Both the position numbers and the translations under genes were made by a program. DNA of 64,000 bases from Blastomussa wellsi (taxonomy: Eukaryota; Cnidaria; Anthozoa; Scleractinia; Plerogyridae): positions 10,015,770-10,079,769 of the forward strand of contig OX393568.1 of NCBI GenBank assembly GCA_947652115.1, given 5' to 3'. How positions within the stretch are numbered: position 1 is the first letter of the stretch; each line of letters opens with the position of its first letter. Shown here piece by piece: positions 6,130-55,701 of the stretch. A model generated the notes under the pieces. That model saw nothing but the letters and a program-made list of their open reading frames with translations, was not told the origin of the DNA and made no database searches.

Positions 6130-6440
6130 AAGGTAAGGTAAGGTAAGTCTGCTGTCGGGCCTAGTGGCCCATCAGGCCGGAGCTTATCCCCGGTTTCCGA
6201 AGCATTAAGCGACAGAGAGTATTTCTACTCCCCCCTGGATGGGATGCTAGTCCATCGCAGGGTTACCCCCCAGCAGTAAATTCGCCGGTACCCATTTATA
6301 CACCTGGGTGAAGAGAGGCACTGTGAGAGTAAAGTGTCTTGCCCAAGAACACAACGCAGTGCCCCGGCCAGGACTCGAACCCGGACCGTCCGATCCAGAG
6401 TCCAGCGCACTAACCATTAGGCCACTGCGCCTCCCACATC
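6130..6440 (-). mobile_element. SINE-1 copy 1 (tRNA-derived)
   Basis: A 311-bp minus-strand SINE. Its tRNA-like head at the right end has a box-A-like TGGCCTAATGGTTAGTGC and a box-B-like GGGTTCGAGTCC. The body carries CTTGGGCAAGACACTTTAC and TATAAATGGGTACC, and the left end is a (AAGGT)n tail. It is flanked by the 8-bp target-site duplication CTCATAAT (6122-6129 and 6441-6448) and sits inside PLE-1. Two other copies are at 19840-21154 (interrupted) and 55715-55991. Confidence 0.85.
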
Positions 6441-6477
6441 CTCATAATGTTACGTGAAAAAGAATTTTGAGTACACT

Positions 6478-6619
6478 TGTTACGATCAAAGTAAGGACAC
6501 CGAGCATAAACACAACACAATAACTTTAATGGCGGCGAGCGAAAGACCACGAGGTCTGATTACATAACAATAAGTCACGTGATACAGAAATGCATGCTAA
6601 TTTATGCAGTATCACAACA
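6478..6619 (-). repeat. Gypsy-B 3' LTR
   Basis: 142 bp. The plus strand begins TGTTACGATC and ends TATCACAACA. It pairs with the right LTR at 9373-9514. An ACTTTAAT block (reverse-complement ATTAAA signal) and a TCACGTGA box (6575-6582) lie inside. Confidence 0.9.
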
Positions 6620-6632
6620 TCTTCCCCTTTGT
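6620..6632 (-). other. Polypurine tract of Gypsy-B
   Basis: The minus strand reads ACAAAGGGGAAGA directly before the 3' LTR, the expected place for the plus-strand primer in reverse transcription. Confidence 0.65.
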
Positions 6633-6815
6633 AAAGAAAGTGTCTCAACTGAGTCTTGTAAATTGCGACTGAGTTTCTTAGCAAAATAAACAATGTTCAA
6701 AATGAAGTTTCTAACAAAGTATACAGTTTAAGTCACAAAGTCCTGAAAATGGGCTGGTGTTTTTACAATACGACCACTCCTTGTAACAGTTGGAGGGGAG
6801 GCAACTTCCACATGT

Positions 6816-9213
6816 TCAGCAGCAGGTTTCACAACAGGTGGGGGGGTCTGTTTGTAGAACTGACTGCAGAGGCTCAGCTACTGGTTTCGCAACAGGGTGG
6901 AAATCTGACTGCGGCACTGATCGCAGCTGTCGGCGATTTCGTCGGTAGGTTCGACTACCCAATACAGCCACATCAGAACGCGAGCCAATCATTTTCTTGC
7001 AAACAACTTCTGACCAGGTAGATTCTTTTGGCTTCTTCATCCTGACAGTCTGTCCAGGTTGTAACTCAGGTAATGCTGTACCTTTCAGGTTGTAGTAGAA
7101 AGCCTGCTTTTGCTTAGAGTCAATCAGTTTATCTTGCACATCCTGTGGAGGAACTGACTTAGGCTCCAGTTGTTTACTTGACAGCGGTAACAAATTGCGT
7201 GTTCTCCTGCTTAACAGCCTTTGCGCTGGGGATGAACCAATTTCCGTAGGCGTGTTACGATAGTCTAGGACGGCAAGATAAGGATCAAACTTTCCACGCA
7301 CAGCCTTCCTCGTGATGTTTTCACAGATTTTTCCCGCACTTTCAACCTTTCCGCTACTTTGGGGGTTCCGTGGAGAGGAAGTGATGTGTTGAAAGTGTCA
7401 GTCACTTGCAAACTTTGCAAACTCTACAGAAGCATATTGTGGTCCATTGTCAGAAATGACAATTTCCGGAATTCCATGCCGGCTAAACTGCATTTTCAAC
7501 TTCTCAATAACAGTTCTGGAATCTGTCATGTTAAGCTTATCCACCTCGAAGAAAGAAGAATAATAATCAACAGCAATCAGGTACTGACGCTGATCAAACA
7601 CGAACAGATCTGTGCCAACCTTTTTCCCAGGCCTTGAAAGGATTTCATGGGGCATTAGCGGCTCTCGAGGCTGTGCTGGCTTGTACAAATTGCAGATGTC
7701 ACACTTGAGAATGAAATCTTTAAACTCGGCATTCAAGGGCGGCCAGTAAAACACTTCTCTGGCTCGTCTAAGGCAGCACTCAATACCAAAATGGGACGAG
7801 TGCACCCTTTCCATCATTTCCTTTCTTAACTTGGCAGGTACAATGAGGCGCTCGCCCTTAAACAGCAAACCATTTTGGGCTGTAATTTCATCTCGAAACT
7901 GGAAGTGTGGCTTGATCTCAGCTAGAACTTCATCCAGAGTGTTAGGCCAACCCTCTAGAACAGTGGACACGAGGATCTGAAGGATTTCATCCGAGGCGGT
8001 GCACTCTTTGAATTCCTTCAGTCGTGCTTCTGAAATGGGGAGATCCTCCACAAGTAGTATCTCCTCCAGCTCATTGCAAAACTCGGTCTGTGTGGGAGGG
8101 TCGTCGAGATAGGCTCGGGACAGAGGATCAGACATAACCATCAAGCTTCCTTTTTGATACTTAACATCAAGGTTGTAACGCTGTAAGTGTAACAACATCC
8201 TCTAAAGACGCTTGGGAGCAGAACCAAGGTCCTTCTTGAAGATGGCTTCAAGGGGTTGATGATCTGTTTTAACATGCACCACATCTCGACCATACAGGTA
8301 CGTATCAAACCTCTCACAAGCAAAAACAACTGAGAGAAGTTCCTTCTCAATCTGAGCGTAGCGACTTTCAGCAGGAGTTAGAGCTCTTGAGGCAAATGCA
8401 ACTGGCTGACCCTCCTGAAGTAGGGAGGCGCCAAGTCCACTGAAAGATGCATCACTTTCAATTGTGACTTTCCGATAAAACTTCCGATAAAACACTGGAG
8501 CTTCACATAAAAGACTCTTGATACTTTGGACAGCTTCATCATGAACAGACAGCCAACACCATTCAGCATCCTTAAGCTCCAGTCGCCTTAATGGTTCGCA
8601 GACACTGGACAGGTTTGGTAAGAACTTTGCTAGGTAAGTTACCATGCTAAGAAATCTTTTCAAGGATTTGACATCTGTCGGGACAGGCATGTCACGTATG
8701 GCACGTAATTTGTTTGGATCAGTCACAACACCATCCGCTGTGAGTAAATGGCCCATGAATGGTACGCGTGATAGGCGAAGCTTAATCTTCCGAAGATTAA
8801 GTGTCGGTTTCATCTCACGGCATCTTTGCAGAAAGGCGGTTAAATTCTGATGATGATCCTTCACAGCTTCATCTACTGTGTCTCCAAATCGACAAACCAG
8901 GAAATCATCAGCAATTACTTCAACTCCTTGGAGACCCTCAATGGCTTCATGCATCTTCCGCTGCCATATCCCGGGAGCAGAACTTATGCCGAATGGCATC
9001 CTCAGCCAACGGAAACGGCCAAAAGGGGTATTAAATGTGGTAAGGTAACTGGAGTTCTCAGTCAGTTTAACCTGCCAAAAACCACTCTTGGCATCCAAGA
9101 GAGACGAGAGGTGACATCTTCCACTGTCGGTAGGGGATAGTGAGAGCGCTTGATTGCATTGTTCAAAGGCTCAACGGCGAGTGAATTTTCGCAGTAGTAC
9201 TAACAGCAGCCAT
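6816..9213 (-). pseudogene. Gypsy-B pol remnant: RT, RNase H, integrase
   Basis: The minus-strand frame holds, in order, an RT with MPFGISSAPGIWQ and the IADD active site (8904-8915), an RNase H with IESDASFSGLGASL and TDHQPLEAI, an H2C2 integrase zinc domain (HSSHFGIECC...CDIC) and an integrase core with DLFVFD and SDNGPQY. The integrase tail runs to 6816. Two in-frame stops break it, at about 8199-8204 and 7395-7397. A frame change lies near 9100. Upstream, a gag-like ATG (9211-9213) is fused to mid-RT sequence through a large deletion. The element could only move with proteins from another copy. Confidence 0.85.
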
Positions 9214-9353
9214 ACTTGTGTTAAATAAACTTGCAACGATCCAAACACACACTCGAACGTAAACTATAGACTTCAGTGAGCCTACCAATGACGGACGAAG
9301 CGTTGGACTTGAAGACTTCCAAGCTGGGAAGTGATCCTTGATCATTTGGTCTA

Positions 9354-9372
9354 AATCCCACTTTTGACACCA
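9354..9372 (-). other. Primer binding site of Gypsy-B (tRNA-Leu CAG/CAA type)
   Basis: The minus strand starts TGGTGTCAAAAGTGGGATT right after the 5' LTR. This matches the complement of the 3' end of animal tRNA-Leu(CAG/CAA) except for two bases, by recall of that tRNA. Confidence 0.6.
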
Positions 9373-9514
9373 TGTTACGATCAACGTAAGGACACCGAGC
9401 ATAAACACAACACAATAACTTTAATGGCGGCGAGCGAAAGACCACGAGGTCTGATTGCATAACAATAAGTCACGTGATACAGAAATGCATGCTAATTTAT
9501 GCAGTATCACAGCA
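9373..9514 (-). repeat. Gypsy-B 5' LTR
   Basis: 142 bp and colinear with 6478-6619, with three substitutions seen by eye. Its right end is followed by the ACACT duplication. It contains TCACGTGA at 9470-9477. Confidence 0.9.
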
Positions 9515-9595
9515 ACACTGAATTTGGCGACGATATTGATTAGAAGAGCCAAAGAAGTTCCCAAGCGTTAACTTTGGAAAAGTGGGAATGAGTTG

Positions 9596-10121
9596 AGAAT
9601 TGTTTCATTTGACCCAAAAAGTAGTGAGACGGGTGATGTAGCAGCTCTCTCGTATGGTCTCACGTGAATGGCTCACTACCCTGCCTGAAAACAGTAAAAC
9701 AAACAACTGGAACAATGCCCCCAGCGCCTAAAACAATAGCAACTGCTACACTAGGAGGACCAGTAGAAGTACAAGCTTAGTGGAGCTGCAACACTACTCC
9801 TTAACACTTTTCGCTCTGCATTGCTCCTTCAGCGCATATTTTCTTGGTATTGTATTGCCGCCGCCTACACTTAATTGTCTGGCACCGCTATGTCGCACTT
9901 ACCACTCGGGCTGTAGAGCAGTGCAAACTCCTTCTTTCACTAGCCTATCTGGAAATTAAATTATTTTGTTTGGGAACAGCATCGGACATATCCATATCCA
10001 AAACTGATTTTAGTGCTGAGCAATGAACATATGCAGGTAAATGTACATAATGTTTTCCCCTCTGAAGGTCTGGTCCACCTATGTATTTAACTCACGTACC
10101 ATTTATTTTGCTTGCTTACAG
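9596..10121. other. Unassigned intronic sequence before M13 exon 1
   Basis: No coding region or repeat was recognised beyond the PLE-1 N-terminal part. The last 30 bases are a pyrimidine-rich splice acceptor (TTTTGCTTGCTTACAG). The upstream M13 exon is not visible here. Confidence 0.4.
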
Positions 10122-10189
10122 GTCACTAAGTTATGGTGCTATAGGATCCATTATTGGACATGAGATGACTCATGGATTTGACAATACTG
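10122..10189 (+). CDS. M13 metallopeptidase (neprilysin/ECE-like), exon with HExxH zinc motif
   Basis: This exon encodes [20 protein letters not shown] and NTG, which contains the HExxH zinc-binding and catalytic motif (HEMTH) of peptidase family M13. M13 enzymes such as neprilysin and endothelin-converting enzyme are usually type II membrane proteins that cut peptides outside the cell. The exon is bounded by acceptor TTACAG and donor GTCAGT. It starts one base into a codon and ends one base into the Gly codon that is completed at 17342. It is 68 bases long, and the splice phase and the protein both fit the next exon 7.2 kb away. Confidence 0.9.
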
Positions 10190-11426
10190 GTCAGTTTATT
10201 TAGAACTTTTTCAAAATCATTAATAATAATTATCATAGCAGCGAAAATTAAAAATATTCGTTTTGGTAGCAAACAGTTTCAGTAAGACATTCGTTTTTTG
10301 CGTGGATTTCTACCCATATAAGACCTATCACACGAAAACATTTTTTGCGGTGTCCGTTTGAATGGCTCAATGGATGGCAAGCGGACGGATAAAAACGGAA
10401 GCACATTGAAGTCGAATGGCTGAACGGCGGAACAAAAGTTTAAAGGCTTAACCAAAATGGCTGATCGGCAGAAAAAATTGTAAACTCCAACGGCCAAAAC
10501 GCAAAAGGTTATTTTCGAATGGATCAAATTGAACGGCTGAAACAGCCGATGAAAGAAAAGACAACATGAAACAAAACCCGCAATTCCAGAACTCTCGAAA
10601 GAAATTAAATAATATAAACAGCAACGAGAAGAGTTGCATTTATAATCGTAAACGTGTATATTAAAAAGACCTCGAATAAAACTTTTGAAAGCAAAACAAG
10701 CGTTTCTGCGTTCGGTGGAGAGTTACACATAATGCCGTTCGTTGCTCATTGCTGAATGAAAAAATAACTTTTGTCATTCAGCAGATTTCTATAATATGTA
10801 ACGGAACCACTTTTCATAACAGCGACGTTTCGGGGAAGGTGACCCTTTTTCCAATAGGTGTTTCTTTGTAAGAAAAAGCAAATTTTTAATAAAATATTTA
10901 CAGTAAAATTCCGACAGCGTAAATAAAATTTCATTTGTCGGCATTTTTCGGCTGCATTGATTTGCGTATTTACTGAGAACAACCTGGCTATTAATTTGTA
11001 ACAACAAACAATATTTTGATTTCTAATGAATTATAAAATGAGTGTGAAATTAATTGAAGCAGTAGATTGGCTTGTGTTTGAAAGCGGATTTTGTTTTGCG
11101 AAAGTTTCACTGTAATTGTGTCAAAAATTTGCACGTCTGACTCATGCACCTGTGAGGACGTGACTCATTCTTGGGAATTGTTGATTCTCCTCTAAAAATA
11201 TCCAAAATCCTATGTTATATAAACAACGGTTGTTGAACAGGAAGTTTCAATTTATTTGTTATTTTCGGCTATAGCGACTTTAAACTGCAAAGGGGAATAA
11301 AATGACTTTTTGAGGGAATATTGTTTATTTGAAACCTTGTTGTGTCATTTGCGGCCCTCGCGTCACTTTATTATCATTATTATCAATAAACATGGCCCAA
11401 TAACATCCTGATAACTAGGAAATTTA
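10190..11426. other. M13 intron, no recognised element
   Basis: AT-rich intron sequence. Between about 10360 and 10560 short variants of GGCTGAACGG recur loosely on the plus strand, possibly an old degenerate repeat. No gene was found. Confidence 0.35.
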
Positions 11427-11651
11427 CAGTCTTTCCCGTAAAACCGTGAACACCAGAAATGTTTATGGAATGTTATTGTGTTACAAAGAGAAAGCAATCA
11501 GGTGTGAGAAAACTTAACTGCAAACAGCAACGGTCGTCGGTTTGTGGTTTTGAGGTTTGTTCGCGTGTCCTGAACTTTGCTGCAATTGGTCACTACACAA
11601 TAAACATTCCAGAAATTTTTTCTGGTGTTCACGGTTTTACGGGAAAGACTG
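11427..11651. mobile_element. MITE with long terminal inverted repeats, TA-flanked
   Basis: A 225-bp non-coding element flanked by TA (11425-11426 and 11652-11653). The ends are inverted repeats beginning CAGTCTTTCCCGTAAAACCG and continuing with gaps for about 55 bases (TGGAATGTTATTGTGT inside). A CAGT start and TA duplication are typical of Tc1/mariner-related elements. It has no ORF, so it would depend on a transposase from elsewhere. Confidence 0.75.
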
Positions 11652-12109
11652 TAATAATGTTTTCAACAATACAAGTAACAACTTACTTCGCTCCGCGCTG
11701 AAAATGTTATAACGGTAAAACCTGGACTGATATGTTTTGAACAGGCGTAGTTGCGGATATAGCTACAAAGTCTCTGAAATGAGTTAAAAACTCATGGCTA
11801 ATCATAATGTTTAGCGAACTTACATTTTCCAGTTGATCTTCGGAGGGTGAACTAATCAGCTTCAGGGCCATTAATGGTCAGTTGCGGCCCGCGGAGCGTT
11901 TATTTTGACGAGGCCAGATTTCAATATGGCCGCGTACATTGACAAAAATGAAGTTTCATTGCAGAGGCGCCTGATTGATGCGACTGGGTATTCACACAGG
12001 AGATAAGATTTAACCAAGCCTAATATATAGATAATTAGATTTATTCCAAGGAAAAAACTTCGGACTTGAGCCCGCGATCCAGTGATATACCTGTCCAACC
12101 TGAGCCCGC

Positions 12110-12316
12110 GATCCAATGATATTCGGGGGAGTGGGACAGCTAGGTTGCCCTCGCAATTCCTAAGAGAATAGGTAGATATTGCAATTCGATTAGTAAACAT
12201 TGATTTCAGATAATCAGGGGCTAGATTTTTTAAGAGATTTATAGACCATGGTGGATGTTTTTAAATCACGTTTAAGACTAAGTTTTTGCCAGCCAAGTTT
12301 AACAAAAAGATCATCC

Positions 12317-12351
<35 letters not shown>

Positions 12352-12430
12352 TACAGTGCGATTCCGTAGTTTTTGTAGTTTAATGGAAAGAGATTTATTG
12401 CAATTCCCCCATACGACACTACAGTAATCG

Positions 12431-12462
<32 letters not shown>

Positions 12463-12727
12463 GTGGAACAGCTTACCTACCAATCTGCGACAAGCACAAA
12501 CTCTTGCTAGTTTTAAATCTGGCTGTAGGGGTTTCCTTTTTTTTAATTCATCACACGGCATTCATGGAAAGCAGGCATTTATTATTGTTTTTATTTTTGT
12601 TGTTATTAGATTTATTTTAGTAGTAGGTTAATATCTTTATAATGTAATTAATGTAATTTTAGTATTTATTTTAAGTCCTGATTATTTATCCGTGTGTAAA
12701 TAAAGTTAAATAAATACATAAATAATA
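12110..12727 (+). mobile_element. CR1/L2/Jockey-type LINE end with inverted 5' segment
   Basis: Two parts of one LINE lie head to head. On the minus strand, 12432 down to about 12120 encodes RT C-terminal sequence (FDYCSVVWGNCNK, LGWQKLSLKRD, MFTNRIAIS, SLRNCEGNLAVPLPR), with one frame change in an A run. On the plus strand, from about 12436, the next part of the same protein follows (NSFSYSGAVLWNSLPTNLRQ), then a 3' UTR and an A-rich tail ending near 12727. This is the layout of a 5' inversion made by twin priming. It lies in the M13 intron. Confidence 0.75.
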
Positions 12728-13586
12728 TACTATACCTGATCAGCGGTCAACTTAAAAAAAACACATGACCTCGATGAGCTCGCGATATGGCCATGTGATA
12801 CTGGTAAGAGGATGACTTCTTTTGACAGCTGTCAGTTGATCATAACATCGCAAGAACGAAACAGCTGTCCACGGTTGCAGTCCTGCTTTATCGGTTTCTG
12901 TCGGGTTGTTGTCTCGCAAAGTCAACTTTTTCACGTAGTATCAGTCTTGCAGTTATGTTTGTGTTACAGTTTATTTTTGGCTGATTAGGTCTCTTGCAGA
13001 TCCTACGTAAACTAGCAGCATTATCGTTCGCGGTCCTTTGCAGTTTTCACGTCAACTCCAGACCTGAGCCCGCAATATTCCCACGAGCCCGCTAGCAATT
13101 CCTCTAGCCATTTTGCCCATGAAAATTGGACTGCACGGGTTTGTATCAGTATGGTGCTCCGGAGTTCCGCTAAAAGCAAAGCAAAAAGCAATTTTTGTTT
13201 GTTCTTGTTTATTTCTGAAAATATTCTCCTTGAAAATGGTGTTATTAAAAGTTACCAAATACTCCTGAACTGTGTAGCTACTTAAGATCCCATATATTAA
13301 ATTGTCAACTGAAATGGCAGAATACGTTGGAGGACTACGAAGCTGTCAATAACAAAATGGTTGACCATTATCAGACTGGTAGCAAGTACCAGGTATTAGC
13401 GGCATCTACAGATATGTAATTCCCTTGTAGAATAAAGGTTATCTTTCTATGTAGTCATGTGCATATGGCTTGAAATCTGTAGGACTGGTACGGAGTTCGT
13501 AGATATCACCAAGCAAGGCGCGGTAGCTAAGTGCGATTCTGTACCGTTGCTCGAAGCGTGTTCGTTTTGTTGTAAAGTCGTCCCAG
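12728..13586. other. Unassigned M13 intron, possible LTR of Gypsy-C
   Basis: No gene was recognised. From about 13450 (TGTAGTCATGTGC) the sequence could be the start of the Gypsy-C 5' LTR, which would end CACTACA at 13772 and would have been interrupted by the PLE fragment. This is only a suggestion. Confidence 0.25.
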
Positions 13587-17561: not shown

Positions 17562-17627
17562 ATCAGTGGAAAGGTAACACTTGGGGAAAACATTGCCGAC
17601 AATGGAGGAACGAAACTTTCGTATTTT
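17562..17627 (+). CDS. M13 metallopeptidase, exon with ENIADNGG zinc-ligand motif
   Basis: This 66-base exon encodes ISGKVTLGENIADNGGTKLS and YF. The Glu of ENIAD is the third zinc ligand in family M13, and the next Asp helps catalysis. Acceptor TGTCTCCAG and donor GTAAGT are canonical. It starts and ends on codon boundaries and lies only 89 bases after the previous exon. The following intron reaches 44355, about 26.7 kb. Confidence 0.9.
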
Positions 17628-38985: not shown

Positions 38986-39000
38986 TTCTAAATGACCATT
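38986..39000 (+). repeat. Target-site duplication of L1-A, left copy
   Basis: TTCTAAATGACCATT, repeated exactly at 44274-44288 on the other side of L1-A. Confidence 0.9.
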
Positions 39001-39175
39001 TTTTTTTTTTTTTTTTTTTTAATGTCTTTAATATCCACATTTTTCACATAATTAATTAATTATATAATTAGGTACACGTACAAAAACAAAAATATAAATA
39101 TATATATTAAGATATGAAGTTTGAACAGTATTTGTAGTATAGAGAACAATTAAATAGGTAAATAAACTAAATAAA

Positions 39176-42100
39176 TTACAAAAAGGGTGCCCAAGTTGTT
39201 TCGAATTTATTTAGTGACTTGTTTTTTATAGCTATTGTGCGCATGATATCTAACTTGTTTTTTAAACGTAGAAGAAAGCAATCAAAGCTCAGCCTGTCAT
39301 CGCAGACACTTGTTGTGAAAATGTGATATTTGGCAATGATAAGAATGTAATTGAGCACTCTCTTATTCTTCGCATTCTGGTGCCAGCCAGATAAAATCAC
39401 ATTTGCAGATAGGACAATTGTTTCAGAAATTTTTTCTTCCCACCATCGCGTAAATTTTTCCCAAAAGAGGAGCGATTCGCTGCAATTGTATAACATGTGA
39501 ACAAGCGATTGTTTTTCTAACTTGCACAATGAGCATATATCATCATCTACAAGGCCGGCGCGAAATAAACTGGAGCGACATGGCAAAATATTATGTATTA
39601 TATTATACTGGAAGGCAATAAGCTTCGTTTCTTTGGTAACTGAGAAAGGAAGCAAGTAGACGTCGTGAATATTCTCTTTGGTGAATCCGTAATCTAGAAT
39701 TTTGTTTTCATTTGTCGGCGGTATAAAAGTTCTTTCAAGGATGTTTTTGTATGCAGTTCGAGTGCTGGGATTTGTTAATGGAATGGAAGTTTCAGGAGAA
39801 GCAGTTTGTATTGGTTTGTTTGAATTCCGGATTGACCTTTTCCACTTGTTTGGAATAGCTTTTATAAGACCGTGGTACAAGGTGAATGGTGTATCGATGT
39901 TAAATTTTTGTTTGAAGTTGGCCAAAGACAGAAACTCTCGGTTTGCATTTAGTAGGTCCTGGACCTGTACAATATCATGATGGAACCAGCTACTGTAAAA
40001 TAATGATTTTTTGTCAACCAAAATGTTTTGGTTGTTCCAAATAATTTCATATTCTGGGGGTGTTCTGCTACATGGCGTCAGTAATTTGTAATCTTGCCAG
40101 TACCTCAGTACGAATTGGTAAAAAGTTGGGAGATTTTTAAGGTCGAGTAGTTTAGAGTCGTAATCACAATTTGTTAAAAAGGACAGACCGCCATATTGAA
40201 CTAAAGCTTGCTCCGGAATTATTTTCCAAGAGGCGTCACCTTCATCTTTTATTCTTTTGATCCAGGCTATTTTAAAAGCCTTTTCCATAATTTCAAAGTC
40301 CATCATTTTCAGTCCGCCATGTTTCTTTTCGGCAATTATTGTTTTCTTCTTTATTTTTGCAGGTTTGCCTTCCCAAATGAAGTTAAAAGTGAGTTTATTG
40401 ATTCTCTCCACCAAGAGTGGGGGGATAGGGAGCACGGACGTACTATAAATAATTTTAGATAAGCCCAGGGACTTGACAATTTTTATTCTTCCGATCAAAG
40501 TGAGATTTCGTCGCCTCCACGCGTTTAGAACTTTTTCTATGTTTTTGATCTTTTCCTCAAAATTTAGCCTGTTCGCGTGTTGTTCATCATAAGAGAAATG
40601 TACACCGAGGGCCTGCACAGGCTCTTTTGGCCATTTAAAATTGTATGGGGTTTCTCGGCAGTTTCTCCAAGAACCTAGCCACAAGGCCTCGGTTTTAGAG
40701 GTATTGATTTCCAGTCCACAGTTTGTTTTGAATTCCTCTAAAAGTTTCAATAATTGAGTTACTGACTCACAGTCACGAACAAAAATCGTGGTGTCATCAG
40801 CGTACTGCGTGATTTTAATTTCTTTTTGGCCAACGTTTATGCCGTTGATAGTGGTATCATTTTTTACGGCCCTGGCAAAAAGCTCAATTCCAATCACGAA
40901 CAGGAGACCCGATAACGGGCAACCTTGTCTTACTCCCCGTTGAAGGGGAAAAAATTCCGACGCGTGGCCGTTGTTTAAAACACAGCTAGAGACTTGGTGG
41001 TATAATATAGCAAACCAGTTTAACAGATCAGGACCAAAATTAAAGAGCTTTAAAGCAGCGTTGATGTAATTCCATTCGATTGTGTCAAAAGCCTTTCGAA
41101 AATCCAGAAAAATTGCGATTCCTGTTTTTTCCATGGTTTTTGTGTAAAACATAATATCTTGTATTAGCCTGATGTTTTCGCCAATAAAGCGGCCTTTAAT
41201 GTAGCCAGTTTGGTCATGGTTTATTATTTTGGGGAGTATTTTCTCTAATCTCTTTGCAATTGCCTTAGTAAGAATCTTATAGTCAACATTGAGTAATGAA
41301 ATTGGTCTAAGGTTTTCCAAAAGTGTCTTATCCTTGTCTTTTTTCGGAATAAGCGAGATTATTCCACGCCTCTGACTAATAGAAAGGATTCCTTTTTGGA
41401 AAGCGTAATTGAAACTGGAAGTCATGTCCGCTTTTAGCTCTGGCCAGAAGAATTTATAAAATTCACTTGTAAACCCGTCTGTTCCGGGAGATTTGTTATT
41501 CTTGAATTCTTTTATTGCATTTAGGCCCTCATCTTCAGAGAGAAGACCTTCACAAGATTCCATTTCTTCTTGTGTTAGTGGTGTAATATTTTGTGGCTTG
41601 AAAAAAGGCGATTCAAGGAAGGTGTCATTGTCTATGTTTTGGGATTTGTAAAGTGATTCGTAAAAGCGTTTCTCTTCTTCTAATATGGCAAATTGGTCAT
41701 TAACATACTTATTGTCACCAATTTTCAGCTTTGTTACAGTTTTTCTGATATGGTTCCGCTTTTCAATGTTGAAAAAGTACCTGGTGTTACGTTCACCATG
41801 CTCGTGCCATCGTGCTTTACTTCTGAGAATTGCACCTTTTGTCCTTTGGTGCATTATCTCTTTTAGGCGCAAATTAGTGGCGTAAAGCTCGTTTAAAATT
41901 CTTTTGTCACTCGGGTTTTTTTCCGAGTCCTGCAAAAGTTTGTTTGCCTTCTTTTGCAGCAACAATTCTTCTCTTTCGCGTTTCTTCATTTTAATTTTGG
42001 AGTATTTGATCGTAAAGCCACGGATTTCCATCTTAATTAAATCCCATTTTAACCCAAGATCCTCGACATTGGCGTATTTTTCCTTATATTCACGTATATT

Positions 42101-42925
42101 TTCACGTAGCTTGTTCACATAACGAGAGTCTTCTAAAAGAGAGCTGTTAAATTTCCAGAAGCCTGGGCCTTTATCCTGCTTTAGCTCCTCTGATTTGAGA
42201 TGCAAAAAGATTGCGGAATGGTCGGTTTCGGGTGCATTCAATATTTTACAGGCTGTGGTCAGGTCGCCAAGATCTTTGGAGATAAGAAAGAAGTCAAGGC
42301 GACATTGAATTTTGAGGGATTTGTTTCTCCAAGTAAAGCGTATTGTCTCGGGATTTAGATTTCGCCAGATATCGAATAAGTTATAAAGATTCATAATTTC
42401 TTCGATTTTCTTGATCACGAGAATTTTTTTTGAAACTGGATTTCCACCCTGCTTGTCCTTATCTTGTAGAGCGCAGTTAAAATCTCCGCCTATTATAATG
42501 TGTTCCTGAGCAAATTCCTGAAGAATATGTTGGAGGTCATTAAAGAAGACCAGCTGTTGATTGAGATCATTGGGGGCGTAAATGTTTACAAGAACTACGT
42601 GCGAATCGTTAACCATTGCGTCTAAGATGATATGTCTGCCATTATTGTCAGAAATTACTTTTTCTATTTTGAAATCTACTTTTGGATTGACAAGAATCAT
42701 GACACCTTTGCTGTGAGAGGAGCCAGGACTGAAAAAGACTTTACCGCCCCATTCAGCTTCCCAAGTTTTGGCGCAATCTTTAGAACTATAGGTTTCTTGT
42801 AGAAATGTGAAATGGTTGTTTTGATTATGCAGCCACCTGAAAATGGAGCGTCGTTTAATTGATTTGTTTAGACCTCTAACATTTAGAGATTCGCATTTAA
42901 TATTTGCGTTCTGTAGCGGGCTCAT
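39176..42925 (-). CDS. L1-A ORF2: endonuclease and reverse transcriptase
   Basis: This protein nicks target DNA and copies the element RNA into it. The frame is open from 42952; the Met at 42925 (MSPLQNANIKCESLNVRGLN) is preferred because the endonuclease domain starts right after it, giving about 1249 residues. The AP-like endonuclease shows ESLNVRGLN, FLQETYSS, IIGGDFNCALQD (near 42480) and ETDHSAIF. The RT shows FLDFRKAFDTIEW, GVRQGCPLSGLLF and the active site YADD (40793-40804). A C-terminal CSLCKLEKQSLVHMLYNC knuckle fits C-x2-C-x9-H-x4-C spacing approximately. No stop or frame break was seen. Its closest kin appear to be L1/Tx1 elements of aquatic animals. Confidence 0.93.
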   Translation of the reverse strand: MSPLQNANIKCESLNVRGLNKSIKRRSIFRWLHNQNNHFTFLQETYSSKDCAKTWEAEWGGKVFFSPGSSHSKGVMILVNPKVDFKIEKVISDNNGRHIILDAMVNDSHVVLVNIYAPNDLNQQLVFFNDLQHILQEFAQEHIIIGGDFNCALQDKDKQGGNPVSKKILVIKKIEEIMNLYNLFDIWRNLNPETIRFTWRNKSLKIQCRLDFFLISKDLGDLTTACKILNAPETDHSAIFLHLKSEELKQDKGPGFWKFNSSLLEDSRYVNKLRENIREYKEKYANVEDLGLKWDLIKMEIRGFTIKYSKIKMKKREREELLLQKKANKLLQDSEKNPSDKRILNELYATNLRLKEIMHQRTKGAILRSKARWHEHGERNTRYFFNIEKRNHIRKTVTKLKIGDNKYVNDQFAILEEEKRFYESLYKSQNIDNDTFLESPFFKPQNITPLTQEEMESCEGLLSEDEGLNAIKEFKNNKSPGTDGFTSEFYKFFWPELKADMTSSFNYAFQKGILSISQRRGIISLIPKKDKDKTLLENLRPISLLNVDYKILTKAIAKRLEKILPKIINHDQTGYIKGRFIGENIRLIQDIMFYTKTMEKTGIAIFLDFRKAFDTIEWNYINAALKLFNFGPDLLNWFAILYHQVSSCVLNNGHASEFFPLQRGVRQGCPLSGLLFVIGIELFARAVKNDTTINGINVGQKEIKITQYADDTTIFVRDCESVTQLLKLLEEFKTNCGLEINTSKTEALWLGSWRNCRETPYNFKWPKEPVQALGVHFSYDEQHANRLNFEEKIKNIEKVLNAWRRRNLTLIGRIKIVKSLGLSKIIYSTSVLPIPPLLVERINKLTFNFIWEGKPAKIKKKTIIAEKKHGGLKMMDFEIMEKAFKIAWIKRIKDEGDASWKIIPEQALVQYGGLSFLTNCDYDSKLLDLKNLPTFYQFVLRYWQDYKLLTPCSRTPPEYEIIWNNQNILVDKKSLFYSSWFHHDIVQVQDLLNANREFLSLANFKQKFNIDTPFTLYHGLIKAIPNKWKRSIRNSNKPIQTASPETSIPLTNPSTRTAYKNILERTFIPPTNENKILDYGFTKENIHDVYLLPFSVTKETKLIAFQYNIIHNILPCRSSLFRAGLVDDDICSLCKLEKQSLVHMLYNCSESLLFWEKFTRWWEEKISETIVLSANVILSGWHQNAKNKRVLNYILIIAKYHIFTTSVCDDRLSFDCFLLRLKNKLDIMRTIAIKNKSLNKFETTWAPFL

Positions 42926-43324
42926 TATGCGTGTACATACAATATGTAACACTCAAGGGACTGCATTGGGCTAAGATTTTGAATGCTTTCATTAATCAAA
43001 AGCTCGGATGTGTGATTCACAGAGCCTGCATATTTGATGATGTGAACAAATATGAAACAAAGATCAAAAAGACAGCATTTTAGGCAAGAAAAAAACAACA
43101 AACCTAAACAGTAAAGAAAAATACAAAAAACATGCAAAAACAACATACACACAAATAATCTAAAACAGGCTCAAGAAGGCCCTAAACGCACCGTTGCCGA
43201 TTTAGGTTAGCGTTTTTTGACTGGATGCTAAACACGCGATTTCAGACTATACGTGTAACTTCTTATTCTACGTTAGGAGTAGGATGGATATAATGTCAAT
43301 TGATATAAAGTCTCCTTTACCTTG

Positions 43325-44137
43325 TTACGTGTATTTTGTCATTTCGCCTTTTAACTTTTTCAAGTCTTCCTCGCCAACGGTCTTTTGCCTGCCTTCTTCG
43401 TCGATATACTTTAAGGTAGCAGGATAGGCAATAAAAACTTTCCTGTCGTCACCTAACTTCTTTTGGAGGTGTTTCTTGTAGGGCAGAAGCTTCTTTCGTC
43501 GCTCTTGTGTTTTCTTCGCAAAGTCTGCGCTGATACCAATAATGTTCCCGTTATAGGGGTTTCCTTTTAATCTAGCAGCGGCGTTTGCAAGAATCTTCAA
43601 TTTTTCTGTGTGTCTTAAAAAAGCCACATGAATGGGTCTTGGTTTCTTCATGTTGTGTTTTGCGGCGTACGTTGGTGTGCGGTGTGCACGTTCTATTTCA
43701 ACTTGCCCGCATAAAGTTTCCAAAGCCATGTGGTTTGCAATGAAATTCTGGATAAATTCTGCGCAGTCTTGACCTTCCGCTCTTTCCGGGATGTTGTAAA
43801 ATACAAGATTATTTCTTCGAGACCTGTTTCGTAAATCTTCAACTTCTTCTTCTAGTAATTGAAGGTGCTCTTTCTCTGCTTTCTTCTCTATACCTTCTTT
43901 CAAATCTGCTACCTCACTGTTAACTGAGTTTAATCCTCCTTCCAGTTCGAGGACTTTCTGTTTAATGGTGCCCATATCGTCTTCCATTTTGATAAGGCGT
44001 TCGTCAATTTTGTCGAGAAGGTCCAGCTTTTCTAGTCTCCTTTGGATGTCAACCAAGATGGCGTCGCCGACGCCGAGCACATGGTTTTCTTCAGAGCTTG
44101 AGACTCTTGACCTTTTTTCGCTCGGTTTAGGTGGCAT
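43325..44137 (-). CDS. L1-A ORF1: RNA-binding nucleoprotein
   Basis: 270 residues. The N-terminal third is basic and Ser-rich (PPKPSEKRSRVSSSEEN). A coiled coil follows (about residues 30-105), then an RRM-like start RRNNLVFYNIPE, and a C-terminal part with VEIERAHRTP and RPIHVAFLRHTEK, as in transposase_22-type L1 ORF1 proteins. Such proteins form trimers on the element RNA. It lies upstream of ORF2 in the usual order. The start is the first ATG after the 5' UTR. Confidence 0.88.
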   Translation of the reverse strand: MPPKPSEKRSRVSSSEENHVLGVGDAILVDIQRRLEKLDLLDKIDERLIKMEDDMGTIKQKVLELEGGLNSVNSEVADLKEGIEKKAEKEHLQLLEEEVEDLRNRSRRNNLVFYNIPERAEGQDCAEFIQNFIANHMALETLCGQVEIERAHRTPTYAAKHNMKKPRPIHVAFLRHTEKLKILANAAARLKGNPYNGNIIGISADFAKKTQERRKKLLPYKKHLQKKLGDDRKVFIAYPATLKYIDEEGRQKTVGEEDLKKLKGEMTKYT

Positions 44138-44273
44138 ACTTGAAGTGTTTAAGCTGTAAGTGGCGATGGGTAGATTTGCCCGTTATTTTAGGCGATAATT
44201 TGTTGTAGATAGGTAGCTTGTATCGGAGCACTTTAAGACTGTCTATTCCATCGGCGTGTCGGGCCCAGTCCCT

Positions 44274-44288
44274 TTCTAAATGACCATT
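44274..44288 (+). repeat. Target-site duplication of L1-A, right copy
   Basis: Exact repeat of 38986-39000. It fixes the 5' end of L1-A at 44273 and shows full-length insertion without 5' truncation. Confidence 0.9.
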
Positions 44289-44355: not shown

Positions 44356-44454
44356 GCATACCACGACTGGCTAAAAAGGCATGGTACAGAGGAATTTGAA
44401 CTTCCTGGCCTGGAATACACCAACAAGCAATTGTTTTTTATTGGTTATGCACAG
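44356..44454 (+). CDS. M13 metallopeptidase, exon 4 in window
   Basis: This 99-base exon encodes AYHDWLKRHGTEEFELPGLE followed by YTNKQLFFIGYAQ, matching the region after ENxADNGG in M13 enzymes, where LPGL..(T)..QLFF(I/L)(G/S)(F/Y)AQ is conserved. Acceptor CCTCCTGCAG and donor GTTAGC bound it. It begins and ends in phase 0, agreeing with the previous exon 26.7 kb upstream. Confidence 0.9.
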
Positions 44455-45809: not shown

Positions 45810-48800
45810 TTAGTAATAAAACATTAAAGAGAGGTTTAGAATTATTGGTCCGACAATAGTATATGTACTGCTTTGCGATAAGAATAATGTGATTAAACAG
45901 CAAATAGTAACCTTTCCTTTGCCAGTCACCAAATATAATATGTACCTATCAAAAACTTTCTGGTTATCTACGACAAGTTGAATTTCGTCCTGAAGGTGAA
46001 AAGGACTTTTATTCACGTATCCATTTATTTTCAGGGACTGTCGCCACGGTGCAGGGATAGCGTCTATTAAAGACATTAGATCAAAGACGTCTTTTGGAAA
46101 AAAATCCAACTGACGTAAATTGCATTGAAAAATAAATCGATTATTTTCTGTTACGAAATCACCTATTCTGAATAATCCCTTATTAGCCAAGCTTTGATTG
46201 TATATAGATTTACCATTGATACAGATGAATTTGTTGTTCCAAATAACAGTGTTGGATATTTCTTCGTGTGACAGCTCAGGTACCCAATTACGTGTGGCTG
46301 CGAGCATTGCGCGAAGCACTCAAAGCATTCTTTTGCAACTTTGGAAGATTAATCGGAAGCTTTAAGCATAGAATAAACTTATCCCCAACAGGTTTCAGGT
46401 AGTGTAATAAAATAGTTTTCCAATGAGAAGGTTCATCTCTTGCAAAATATTATTCTCAGAGTCTTAATTATAGATTCTAAGTGCGGGGCTTTCAGCCCCC
46501 CATCTTTTGTATCACTGATTAGAGATACATGTTTTACTTTGTCTTTACCTTTCCATATAAAATCAAAAATAATCCTGTTGGCTTTAATAATAACTTCTGG
46601 CTATACAAATTGAACCAGCACGATACATTAACATCGGGATCACGAAGGTTTTTACAATCTGAATTCTTCCAATGATTGTCAGGTTCCTCCACCTCCAAAA
46701 CTGGAATTTTGTTTAAATAACATTTATTATTTCCTTAAAGTTTAATCTGTTTCTCAGACGGCAGTTATAAGAAAAATACACTCCTAATATTTTTACCGCT
46801 TCCTTAATCTCAGTGTTTAAAATACTTGGGTCTTCTGCTGGGGCCGCCCACGTATTTCCCAAGATGACAATTTCTGTTTTAGTAAGATTTATAATAAGGC
46901 CTGCACAATTTTCGAGGTTTGACATAACATCTAATTGGTGTTTGAGAGATCTATCGTGTAACAACCGCTAGTCTTCTCAGTATAAACAATGCTTTAATAG
47001 AACAAACTTCTCAAACTCGAGCTGACAACGTGGTAATTCAAAGTGTTGCTAATGCGCATGTGCGAACTGAACTATGTTGCATATCTCGGAATACTGGACT
47101 GGATATTACATATCGTTCCTCAGGAAAAGAGTTAGATCATCTGCAAAAATCTCAAGTTTAATTTGAATTCCATCAACAACAATTCCTTGAATATCATCAA
47201 TCCCGCGTATAATTGGATCTCCTTGTAATTCATACCTCTTTGTATTTGAAAAGGTCTAGTAGATAAACCATTATTCAAAACACTACTTGTGATATTTTGA
47301 TAAAAAGTACGTCTCCACTGAATGAACGGGGGAACAAAATTGAAAGCAGCCAGCGTGCTATATAACAAGTTCCCTTTTACCGAATCAAAGGCTTTCTGAA
47401 AATCTACTGCTAGCATCTTACCGTGAATCCCATAGCTTTCTGTATATTCGAGTATGTCATCAATCGTCCTTATTGCGTCGTTGATTGTTCTTCCTTTTAC
47501 GTACGCAAGCTGATTATGATGGATAATTTTAGGTAGGACAGTCTGTAGTCTCAGGGCAATAGCTTTAGATCCAATCTTGACATCTACATAAAATCAATGA
47601 AATCGGTCTCCAATTTGAAATTTTACGTTTATCTTTCTTTTCTATCAAAGTTATTGTTACTTGTTTTTGTGAGCTTGATAATTCACAATGATCAAATGAG
47701 TAAGTGAGACTATCCAAAAGGAGTTCACCGAGCGTTTCCCAATACGTAGTGTAAAACTCGACTGTAAGGCCATCGTTACCTGGCGATTTATTGTTTTGAA
47801 AGGATCGCAGACTCTTAAAGCATTCAGTCTTCCCTCACACAAGTAGCATCCTTGCTAGATAACTCAGGGAATCCCTGAGGCTGTAAAAGTGGACTTAATA
47901 CATCGCCGTCGTCGGGACTCTTCAATTGTCCTTCGTTTTGAGACTATTATAAAAGTTTTCCACTTCCTTCATAATTCTTTTGGGGTCAGAGGTAAGGAAA
48001 CCGTCTTCGGTGTATGCTTTACGGATACAACTCTTCGATTTTTGGTGAGTTTCAAGGTTTAGAAAATACTTACAACTTTTTTTTCCTTGCTCGCACCAAT
48101 TTGCTCTAGAACGTATTATCGCCCCCCTTGCTAGATGCTCATAAAACAATTCATACTCCGCTCGGAGGGTTTCCGATTTTTCTGTATTTTTAGTACAATG
48201 GTATCTCTACAATCATTCTCACGCTGAGTCTTCTATTGTTTTCAATCTCTGCTTTCTTGCATTAGCTTTTACTTTGCTATACTTAATCGACACTTGCCTT
48301 ATTCGGTATTTAGTCAAATCCCTAAAGAACTATCTTGTCATTAACCTCAGTCTATAAACTCCTCGCGCTACACTGGCACACTCTGAGTTATAAGCTTACG
48401 AAAATCAGGATCATCTAATAAACTTGCATTAAATTTCCAATACGATGGACCGTGCCTTTGTTCCTCAATACTATTAAAATGAAGCACGATAGCCGACTCG
48501 TCGGGATTTATGGCGGGAGTTATATCGACACCTTGTACATTCTCCTGGTACTAGTCAGTAATCTAATCTCTGTTGGATAAAAGGATTCTTCTGTCTACAT
48601 GTAAAGCGTTTACATTCTGGATTTCTTACACGCCAAATATCCATTAACTCAAAATTTAAACATATATCTTGAATATTCTTTACAGAATCTTTCTTTGTGG
48701 GGTCACCACCAGAGCAATCCCAATCAGGATCAAGAGTAACATTGAAATCCCCACCTAATACTATTTTTTGCTCAGCACCATCACGAAACCTCTCTATCAA

Positions 48801-49217
48801 TATGTTTAGGGCGCTAAAAAATTCGCATTGATCTTTAACCTTATTGGGTGCATAAATATTGACAAATAAAAAGTCCGATCCCTGCACAGTGGCATCAATG
48901 ACGATGAAACGGCCTTCGGTATCTAATACAGACGATTTAAGATCGAATTCTAGATCATCTTTTATTATTATCATCACTCCACAACTGTGATTGGTACCAT
49001 GAGAATAAAACATCTTACCTTTAAATTGTGTTTTCCAGAGAGATTCTATCTCTTTCGTGCTGTACGTTTCGTGGAGAAAAATGACGTCCACATTTTGCTT
49101 GTTTAACCACAGAAACAGAGCTTTCCTCTTTGTAGATGAACGAATCCCTCGAACATTAAGAGAAATCAATTTAAAATCAACATTATCTTTGCTGAAGGAA
49201 TTTAAAGCGTGAACCAC
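45810..49217 (-). pseudogene. L1-B ORF2 remnants: endonuclease, RT and C-terminal region
   Basis: The endonuclease part (48555-49217) is nearly complete: LISLNVRGIRSSTKRK, FLHETYSTKE, IVLGGDFNVTLDP. RT traces follow at 47922-48149 (RANWCEQGKKSCKYFLNLE), 47132-47416 (AVDFQKAFDSVKGN) and 46713-46964 (NCAGLIINLTKTEIVILGN). The C-terminal region is at 45810-46319. The YADD box is not intact where expected (near 47130-47200). At least six breaks are present. Confidence 0.8.
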
Positions 49218-49582
49218 ATATTATACAAACTTGTTGAAACGTGCATACAAAGTTGATAAAACATTGCGATTATCACCGAAACAATATTATTTGATATACA
49301 TAAAGACAATAAACATGAAAACAATGAACAACAAAACACACATAAAAACATTAAGAAAAGCAGTAGATATTCTATATCCTTGTGCTACCTTGGGATTTAA
49401 GGACCGAATTTGTTTCTCTACAATATGCAAAGTTCGCATTCTACGCCGTTATCAAAATCATCCGTGTAACAAAGATTTTAAACACTCAAACACCATCTTT
49501 GGCCACAATTTCTTCCTCCTATCTCGTATTTCTTCCGGAAAATCAGAATAAACTTTCACATCTGATTCCTGCCCTAGATCTC

Positions 49583-50271
49583 TCACATTTTTATCGACCT
49601 TGGCTGCCCTGACTTCTTTTTCCCGAGTCTGTGGACCCGCTGAAACTCTATGTTTCTTGCAACTTCTAACTCTAATTCATTCTCCAGAAACCTGTAAACC
49701 ACTTCACATGTATTCTCTATGCCCTGAGCTTCTTCGTGGAGGCCGAAAAAGCGTAAATTCTCTCTCCTGCTGTAGACATTTTGATATATAATTCGGTCTT
49801 CCAAGCCCTTAACTCTGTCTTTAGTTTGTTGCTCTCTCATCTTCATTTCCTCAATATCTGCATTGGTAGACGTCAAACCCGCTTCCATCTCCTGTATCGT
49901 CTCCCCCATCTTCTTAGCTTTTTCCTCAAAGCATACCATACTCGCTTGAATCTTGTTTACCGCGATCTCCAGGCTAGAAATCTTAGCGAGAGCTCCTTCC
50001 ATAGTTTGTAATTTCGTCTTCATCCGATCAACTCTGTCAAGGATTTGTTGAAGCTGTTGACCAATCCTGTCAGTCATCGTTAAAGCTTTCAGAACTTGGT
50101 CGTCACTATCATCGAGCGGTCCCTCGCTAAGCTCGCTTATAGCAGAATTCGAAAGCGTCGTATTAAAACTCGAGACGAAGATCCGCTTACCATTTACACG
50201 TTCCACTATCTGAATTAGAACTCTTACTTGTTCTCGTTCGCTTGAGAGTTTTCACGCTCGCCTTCGCCATG
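49583..50271 (-). pseudogene. L1-B ORF1 remnant with coiled coil
   Basis: A long coiled coil (QQLQQILDRVDRMKTKLQTM onward) precedes an RRM-like NVYSRRENLRFFGLHEEAQG and VEFQRVHR-like sequence. A frame change near 50200 separates the first 22 codons from ATG 50271, and the frame breaks again near 49590. The function would be as for L1-A ORF1. Confidence 0.75.
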
Positions 50272-53555: not shown

Positions 53556-54640
53556 AAGCGAACCTCAAAATCGCCAACGTTTCCACGTTGAGAGATTGAT
53601 AACTTGCCAATATAATTACATACGCTCCATTTAGCCTTGCTGAAAGATCTGGTCCTACCAAATCGAAGAAATGCTTATAAAATTCCACAGTTAGACCGTT
53701 CTTCCCTCGGTAATTTGCCATGTTCAAGGTATTACAATGATTTTTGGCATTCCTCAATTGTCAGGGGGCATCAAGTTCATTCCCTTCATCATCGTTAAGT
53801 TTACGGAACTCGAGGTTTTCGGTAAATATTTCGAAGCTGTCTTGTGTCTCAGTTGTTCTGGAGTCGTACAGGTCACTCTATTAAGTTCTGATTGCCGACA
53901 GGATATGCTTTTCATTTGTAGTTGCTTCCCCGTTTCCTGATTTAATTTTATTGATGGTTTTCTTATTATAGTTCCTCTTCTCCAAATGAAAGAAGTATTT
54001 TTGGGTTTTTCTCCCTCTTCGTCCCAGCGGCATTACAGATTGTTTTGTCCAGCGCATCTTGGTTCTCTTTAATAATTATCTTAATTATCTCTTTTAATTG
54101 CTTTTGTTTTAGCGAAAGAAATGGTGGTGTTCCTTATTTCCATCTTTATAAGTTCCCAAAACAGCTGTTGGTGCTTTACATGCGAATATTTTTCGCGACA
54201 TTTCGGGTATAATTCTCTTATTTAGGCTGTATACTCTTCGTCTTCTAATAGCGTATTGACGAGTTTCCAGAATCCGGGCCTCGAGGGTTTTCGTTTGGCC
54301 ACGACAGCGACAATGATATCATGTTGGGATTTGGCGCAATTGAGTTTTGGATGTCTACCTTTTTAACAAATTACGTTAGGTGTTGAGCAACTAGAAAAAA
54401 GTAAATCCATGATTTAACCCCTAACGCTTTGGACACATAAGCGTTCTTGTTTAGCTTAGGGTGACGAGTTCTTTGAATGTCAACAAGGTCGAGTGTATCC
54501 ATTGTAATTTTAACTAAATTCTGATACGCTGAGGGTCTCCAGGGAGCGCCACCCGTTTTATCCCTCGTTTGATATAGGGTCCAGTCACCTCCAACAGTTA
54601 GGGTTGCAATTTCAGATCTATCAATGAAGAGTAATCAGTT
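53556..54640 (-). pseudogene. L1-C: decayed L1/Tx1-type LINE fragment
   Basis: The minus strand shows an endonuclease trace (TRDKTGGAPWRPSAYQNLV, ITMDTLDLVDIQRTRHPKLN, about 54440-54600), a linker, and the start of RT (GLTVEFYKHFFDLVGPDLSA, 53554-53757) ending in an ILRFA-like sequence. It is short and full of breaks. It differs from L1-A and L1-B. Confidence 0.65.
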
Positions 54641-55071: not shown

Positions 55072-55701
55072 GGTGGTATTCCGCATTGAGAATAGCTCCC
55101 AAACAAATGCTTACTCGTATTTTTCCATTTATTCTTATTAAGGATTATCCCAAACGAACGCGCATTTTTGCGAAGGCTAAAACTATTTTCGGTTACTGCC
55201 GTTGTTAAAATAACCAAATATATAGGTTGAGAGGTCACCTGATAATTCAGAACTGTTTTTTATTCTTAACTACAGGGTAATTGGGACACTTTCTAATTTT
55301 AAGGAGTTCTCTGAGGCGTTTAATTGTCCAGTCAATAGCACCATGAACCCCGAAAACAAGTGTGAGGTGTGGTGATGAAGTCTGCAAGGATATGAAATGG
55401 TATCATAACCAAGGAATCAAGTGAAATGACAGTGCATTCACATCTTGCTTTTGCTGTAAAGGCCGCTGTGCGGTTTCGTACCAGCAGTTGAGGCACTGGA
55501 ATGTTTCAAGGAAGCTTAAAGCCATTTTATGCATCACATTTTCGGAAGGATCATTAACTTATTTTGTTACTATGTTGTGGCTTCACGATGATGACTTACC
55601 CTAGACATCTGGCCACTTGATGTGCTGTCAGTGATAAAGCAATCTTTACAGGAGTGTTACTTGTGTGAATAAAATAATTTTCAGTCAAGACAAGTCATTG
55701 T
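55072..55701. other. Unassigned sequence
   Basis: No gene, RNA or known repeat was recognised in this stretch. Confidence 0.35.

Follow-up and report, generated by a model that had tools for sequence, protein, structure and literature searches.

The locus described here raises a simple question: is a complete long interspersed nuclear element (LINE), with both of its open reading frames (ORFs) uninterrupted, a working parent of other copies or a young insertion that has so far collected few mutations? The element lies in a 64,000-nucleotide stretch of the genome of the stony coral Blastomussa wellsi (assembly GCA_947652115.1, contig OX393568.1, positions 10,015,770 to 10,079,769); this whole stretch is called the window, and its numbering is used for the features listed below. 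The initial annotation, made from the sequence alone, described a full-length, apparently competent L1/Tx1 LINE, possibly a source element, and implied that intact copies are rare. We conclude that the element is almost certainly a young, full-length member of a low-copy L1-group (L1/Tx1) subfamily in an anthozoan, and nothing counts against this class; here L1/Tx1 denotes the group as a whole and not the Tx1 clade proper. As LINEs go it is ordinary, a well-preserved example of a kind already known. A feature not noted initially is its position: it runs antisense within an intron of an M13 metallopeptidase gene (endothelin-converting enzyme/neprilysin-like).

Element boundaries and anatomy

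The LINE is 5.27 kb long and occupies 39001-44273 on the minus strand, or 38986-44288 once its target-site duplications (TSDs) are counted. Its features are as follows (aa, amino acids; nt, nucleotides; UTR, untranslated region; RT, reverse transcriptase; RRM, RNA recognition motif).

38986-39000, no strand: TSD at the 3' side of the element, TTCTAAATGACCATT on the plus strand, with an exact twin at 44274-44288
39001-39020, minus: poly(A) tail, 20 A beyond the TSD, uninterrupted
39021-39175, minus: 3' UTR, 155 nt, AT-rich (from composition, ATTAAA at 39027-39032 and fold z-score)
39176-42925, minus: ORF2, 1249 aa, with APE-type endonuclease, RT (YADD) and C-terminal zf-RVT (from the ORF, Pfam and the match to human L1 ORF2p)
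39461-39628, minus: C-terminal zinc-binding region of ORF2, CxxC...HxxxxC (PF13966, E 5.7e-4, below the curated cut-off; motif position)
40595-41350, minus: RT domain of ORF2 (PF00078, query residues 527-778)
42218-42889, minus: endonuclease domain of ORF2 (PF03372, query residues 14-237)
42926-43324, minus: inter-ORF region, 399 nt, between the two ORFs
43325-44137, minus: ORF1, 270 aa, with coiled coil, RRM-like and C-terminal regions, L1 ORF1p type (from the ORF and Foldseek)
44138-44273, minus: 5' UTR, 136 nt, with a 5' end nearly common to three other genomic copies
44274-44288, no strand: TSD at the 5' side of the element, exact twin of 38986-39000

The duplicated sequence is found exactly twice in the window, at the two ends of the element, and none of 100 dinucleotide shuffles reproduces this. 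On the plus strand, a pure run of 22 T extends over 38999-39020; 20 of these fall outside the TSD, and the ATTAAA signal is just 6 nt ahead of the tail. Both ORFs (ORF1, 44137-43325; ORF2, 42925-39176) close in TAA and contain no internal stops. The annotated coordinates, the perfect 15-bp TSD, the tail of about 20 A after ATTAAA and the two open frames are therefore all borne out. The ORF2 coordinates are given from the first ATG, and the open frame extends nine codons further upstream; several ORF2 analyses (Pfam, relatives, conservation and genome search) start one codon ahead of the ATG, at 42928, which makes their residue numbers higher by one, while the analysis of dN/dS (ratio of nonsynonymous to synonymous substitution rates) takes ORF2 from the ATG.

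The sense strand of the element is A-rich (35% A). Folding of the 3' UTR and tail gives no extra stability relative to shuffled sequences (z +0.94), and thus no sign of a stem-loop tail. A search of the whole element against Rfam at a loose threshold returns a single SmY match (E 0.43, under the gathering score), taken as chance; the 5' end thus has no match to a known ribozyme.

Class of the element

ORF2 has the layout of the L1 group, with an N-terminal APE endonuclease and a central RT. Its Pfam matches are RVT_1 (E 1.8e-39), Exo_endo_phos (2.4e-10) and zf-RVT (5.7e-4, below the curated cut-off); the endonuclease and RT named in the initial annotation are thus present. The closest solved relative is human L1 ORF2p (E 6.5e-114), with R2 far behind at 4.6e-23; few other LINE clades are known to have solved structures. 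The poly(A) tail and TSDs of variable length are also those of the L1 group.

ORF1 is of the coiled-coil/RRM/C-terminal domain type by structure and weakly so by sequence. Pfam gives no clear match for it. Among 40 members of the ORF1 family, PF02994 is found at E <= 1 in six (best 0.0037) and is absent from the window's own ORF1; coiled-coil profiles are commoner (PF05531 in 23 of the 40; PF04513 in 15, best 1.5e-5). An AlphaFold model was built from the 40-sequence alignment and compared with the PDB by Foldseek. Human L1 ORF1p accounts for all five matches at E <= 0.001 (best 2.4e-6); the matches ranked 6-7, to its central domain, have E 0.04-0.05 and a root-mean-square deviation (rmsd) of 2.8-3.8 A. 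Certain qualities of the model weigh against this reading: its confidence is middling, with mean pLDDT (predicted local distance difference test) at 72.6 and pTM (predicted template modelling score) at 0.35, so that domain placement is unsure, and the five best matches have low TM-scores (template modelling scores; 0.24-0.28 by query length) with rmsd of 14-23 A. Such low TM-scores would be expected if a long coiled coil bends differently. Sequence matches of ORF1 in the PDB (GCN4 and a designed coil; influenza HA2 and GCN4 in the best 60 of 140) were discarded as compositional, and the type of ORF1 was decided by the fold comparison.

Taken together, the ORF2 domains, the match to human L1 ORF2p and the ORF1 fold matches identify the element as an L1-group LINE, in agreement with its first assignment. 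The viral and prokaryote contig collections contain no relative of it.

Sister copies and age of the insertion

The genome searched for further copies was the window's own assembly (368 Mb, 124 contigs). When the 3' 600 bp of the element are used as a query against the whole genome, 20 candidates are returned, all of which were scored. Counting near-identical copies had been proposed as a check, and 17 candidates match at 93-100% over the 3' end, the window copy included; 13 of them span the entire query, and the remaining three of the 20 are short and weak. Nine of the 17 were examined (again with the window copy), and the count of full-length copies holds for these nine.

Seven of these copies, L009-L015, diverge from the window copy by 0.88-1.36%. 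Three of the seven begin within 17 nt of its 5' end: L009 begins at element position 3 and has a 16-bp TSD with two open ORFs; in L010, which begins near position 17, the TSD is 14 bp and ORF2 has two 1-base insertions or deletions (indels); and L011 starts at position 5, with deletions in both ORFs and no TSD found. The other four (L012-L015) are all 5'-truncated. The nearly identical 5' ends, the exact TSD, the pure A tail and the low divergence together indicate that the insertion is recent and, as annotated, full-length.

The closest copy found, C15, is truncated to 1.85 kb and differs from the window copy at six positions in a stretch of 1811 columns, gaps aside. It has seven of 11 testable derived changes of the window copy; the other four are confined to the window copy.

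In one truncated sister, L013 (contig C4, about 15.244 Mb; 5560-5650), the tail and the TSD are separated by about 40-60 additional bp that have an A-rich end of their own. This stretch resembles a 3' transduction. A genome-wide search for it, allowing up to two mismatches, finds only L013 itself and no donor locus.

In a comparison with the seven copies over 5243 columns, 28 changes (0.53%) are private to the window copy. Those in coding sequence comprise 10 synonymous and 13 nonsynonymous changes (P 0.04 against a neutral 25% synonymous). Between the window copy and L009, ORF2 has 20 synonymous to 21 nonsynonymous changes (P 0.0008, dN/dS 0.27), and dN/dS for ORF1 is 0.17. The synonymous excess and the dN/dS values below 1 imply that the lineages behind these copies were kept functional until recently. 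The pattern points to a LINE lineage that was recently active and under purifying selection, and the parental lineage of the window copy would have been active not long ago.

Competence and the source-element question

Whether the window copy itself can still move is a separate matter; on the sequence alone we regard this as possible, but doubtful. Open frames are weak evidence of competence at this age: leaving indels aside, an unselected copy would have both ORFs still free of stops with a probability of about 0.68 if 10 changes had struck and 0.34 if 28 had, or roughly 0.3-0.7. The same figures favor the view that the copy is young but was dead on arrival, its frames being open merely because few mutations have occurred so far, and small indels are already present in other young copies (L010, L011). 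Against this, no private changes fall within the located endonuclease, RT or zinc motifs, which we take to hold the catalytic residues. We consider it fairly probable that the copy was dead on arrival.

Conservation of at least 90% among 71 relatives and one long fragment marks 186 ORF2 positions, of which the window copy retains 182. Several observations weigh against competence. Of the four departures, three (one in the endonuclease) are missing from all fetched copies that span them. At the 186 positions, L009 departs once; among 18 copies from subfamilies B to E, the number of departures ranges from zero to eight (L017 and L026 were left out of this comparison). In addition, the four window-copy changes missing from C15 all alter amino acids. 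The description "apparently competent" therefore stands as far as the open frames are concerned, and is weakened by the private changes at conserved ORF2 positions and by the neutral chance of stop-free ORFs.

A further reading makes the window copy a live source, from which other copies in the genome descend. In its favor are the two open ORFs and the seven derived changes found also in the truncated C15. However, C15 lacks four of the window copy's changes, so parentage would need a later origin of those; having seven and lacking four indicates a common parent lineage, which does not require the window copy to be the parent. The private changes at conserved ORF2 positions also speak against a source. 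Likewise, the 25 bases after the 3' TSD occur in no fetched locus except the window copy's own (L001), a comparison made among the fetched loci with no genome-wide search. Finally, the L013 tag is found once in the assembly, which excludes the window copy as its donor. On balance, we think a live source possible but rather unlikely.

Intact copies and subfamilies

Intact copies turn out not to be rare. In a genome search with ORF2, 23 of 37 scored matches are full length and stop-free, the window copy included; as 37 of 4184 candidates were scored, this number is a lower bound. Both frames are open in at least 17 of 29 examined copies (the window copy, L009-L035 and C15), with 2 in subfamily A, 6 in B, 6 in C, 2 in D and 1 in E. 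This count reflects the analyst's reading of the frames, and without subfamily B it becomes 11 of 29. The identity of full-length pairs within B, C and D reaches at least 99.67%, 99.89% and 99.93%, respectively (identities were printed only for pairs with the first copy of a family or above 99.8%), and the window copy is 97.4-99.0% identical to its own full-length kin, lower than these pairs. With many open copies and closer pairs in B, C and D, intact L1-group copies are common in this genome, and the window's family is not the youngest.

Two side observations concern these subfamilies. L033 and L035, full-length members of another subfamily with both ORFs open, differ at 4 of 5414 positions and are younger than the window's family. 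In subfamily B (L016-L022), the ORF2 frame is uninterrupted between one stop and the next and opens TAG TTA ATC AAC, and in all seven copies the first ATG is residue 74, inside the endonuclease; the frame 5' of this ATG is conserved and can be aligned with other ORF2s. With no earlier ATG in any of the seven, either ORF2 of subfamily B starts without AUG or all B copies are crippled. Judging from the conserved frame, B may make its ORF2p without an AUG start.

Insertion sites

Insertion would have involved nicking of the target followed by priming steps. For the target-site table, 13 of the 29 copies, from four subfamilies, were usable and 16 were dropped. Eleven of the latter have no TSD by the boundary rule: L011, C15, L017 (whose stretch ended early), L018, L025, L028-L032 and L035. 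The others are L015 (only a chance match, internal to the element), L034 (no family mate for boundaries), L012 (a low-complexity match), L014 (an A-rich boundary) and L016 (an 8-bp match). Among the 13 kept, L022 and L033 have TSDs of 8 and 9 bp, and that of L026 is T-rich.

On the sense strand, the two bases before the TSD are GC at 6 of the 13 sites; taken singly, the last base is C at 9 sites and the one before it is G at 8. The window copy's own site is CAAC|AATG. The base before the TSD is never A by construction, so the C there is partly forced. These sites hint at a TT/GC-like nick, unlike the human L1 site, in a small sample whose boundary is partly forced by the tail.

Site-specific elements of the Tx1 clade do occur in the L1/Tx1 group, according to the available text of two reports (PMC4640811, PMC3747384), and the window element could in principle be one. 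However, at the 13 sites the TSDs vary and no common target is found: copies with a detectable TSD sit in differing sequences, and their sole common feature is the short GC preference before the TSD, seen at 6 of 13. A site-specific element is therefore extremely improbable.

Host gene and neighboring repeats

The plus strand of the window contains pieces of an M13 metallopeptidase gene, at 10122-55372 and in profile order.

near 10122-10189, plus: M13 piece 1 (PF01431, E 4.7e-7, profile 27-52)
near 17562-17627, plus: M13 piece 2 (PF01431, E 0.0044, profile 95-116)
44356-44454, plus: M13 piece 3, host exon 67 nt past the TSD, which makes the LINE an antisense intronic insertion (PF01431, E 0.004, profile 115-149; endothelin-converting enzyme 1 at 1.2e-5)
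near 55277-55372, plus: M13 piece 4 (PF01431, E 8e-8, profile 172-205)

Two of the four pieces are individually below the family's curated cut-off, and no piece covering profile positions 53-94 or 150-171 was located. With the predicted exons arranged in this way, the LINE is antisense in the intron ahead of the third piece. It and the other repeats between 10.2 and 55.3 kb occupy introns of the gene.

One of these repeats is a second, decayed L1-group LINE at 45810-50206 on the minus strand, with an ORF2 about 30-45% identical to that of the window element. The ORF2 relative, at 46029-49184, has stops and frame changes. Upstream of it, at 49583-50206, is a coiled-coil, L1-like ORF1 frame (judged by eye), to which ORF1 of the window element has no match. 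With this frame upstream, the second LINE looks decayed and old rather than simply 5'-truncated. Further LINE pieces at 53620-54344 are short and broken. The other LINEs in the window had been described as 5'-truncated and broken; they are broken, and simple truncation does not seem to hold for the relative at 46029-49184.

A more elaborate account would combine at least four young L1/Tx1 subfamilies having a TT/GC-like nick, one of them without an ORF2 AUG, with a window copy that is a live source and that, from its M13 intron, could be polymorphic and affect splicing. We consider this combination improbable.

Comparison with known systems

Relatives of the element are found among known proteins: P0001 is 76% identical over full ORF2, P0012 95% over 704 aa and P0121 94% over ORF1. 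They belong to clusters of 229, 77 and 38 sequences, respectively, and have the same protein architecture as the window element. No full-length ORF2 above 76% is present among the best 120 of 632 protein matches; a search with the C-terminal part of ORF2 gives close matches over parts only. Named Tx1 references are absent from the matches listed. The organisms named are Oculina patagonica and Porites evermanni, and nearly all other relatives are unnamed.

Human L1 is similar to the window element in its two ORFs, poly(A) tail and 15-bp TSD, in an ORF1p with coiled coil, RRM and C-terminal domain, and in an ORF2p that has an APE endonuclease and an RT (alignment spanning query residues 7-890, E 6.5e-114). 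The human sense strand is also A-rich. Differences include the short 5' UTR of the window element (136 nt, versus about 900 nt in human L1) and its long inter-ORF region (399 nt, versus 63 nt). RT motif C is YADD instead of the human FADD, and the endonuclease has TDH where the human enzyme has SDH; TDH is also present in the four relatives read (P0001, P0002, P0003 and P0012). The nick would be TT/GC-like, in contrast to the TTTT/AA of human L1.

In corals, the available text of one report (PMC12005156) gives 6,122-13,255 pieces of L1-Tx1 LINEs, or 0.91-1.03%, in three stony coral genomes analyzed with RepeatMasker. The group label and the kind of host are as here; the figures are totals and do not describe single copies or their intactness. 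Among the top-ranked titles and abstract openings in the open-licence literature, none has a single intact coral L1 as its topic.

The element leaves the understanding of LINEs unchanged. It does provide a clean, well-bounded young L1-type element in a non-model animal, together with its sisters, that can be used for dating and for work on insertion polymorphism. In having more than one young subfamily at once, this genome resembles those of non-mammalian vertebrates, which have multiple active families with few recent copies of each (PMC5389967, in the available text), rather than those of mammals with their single-family pattern.

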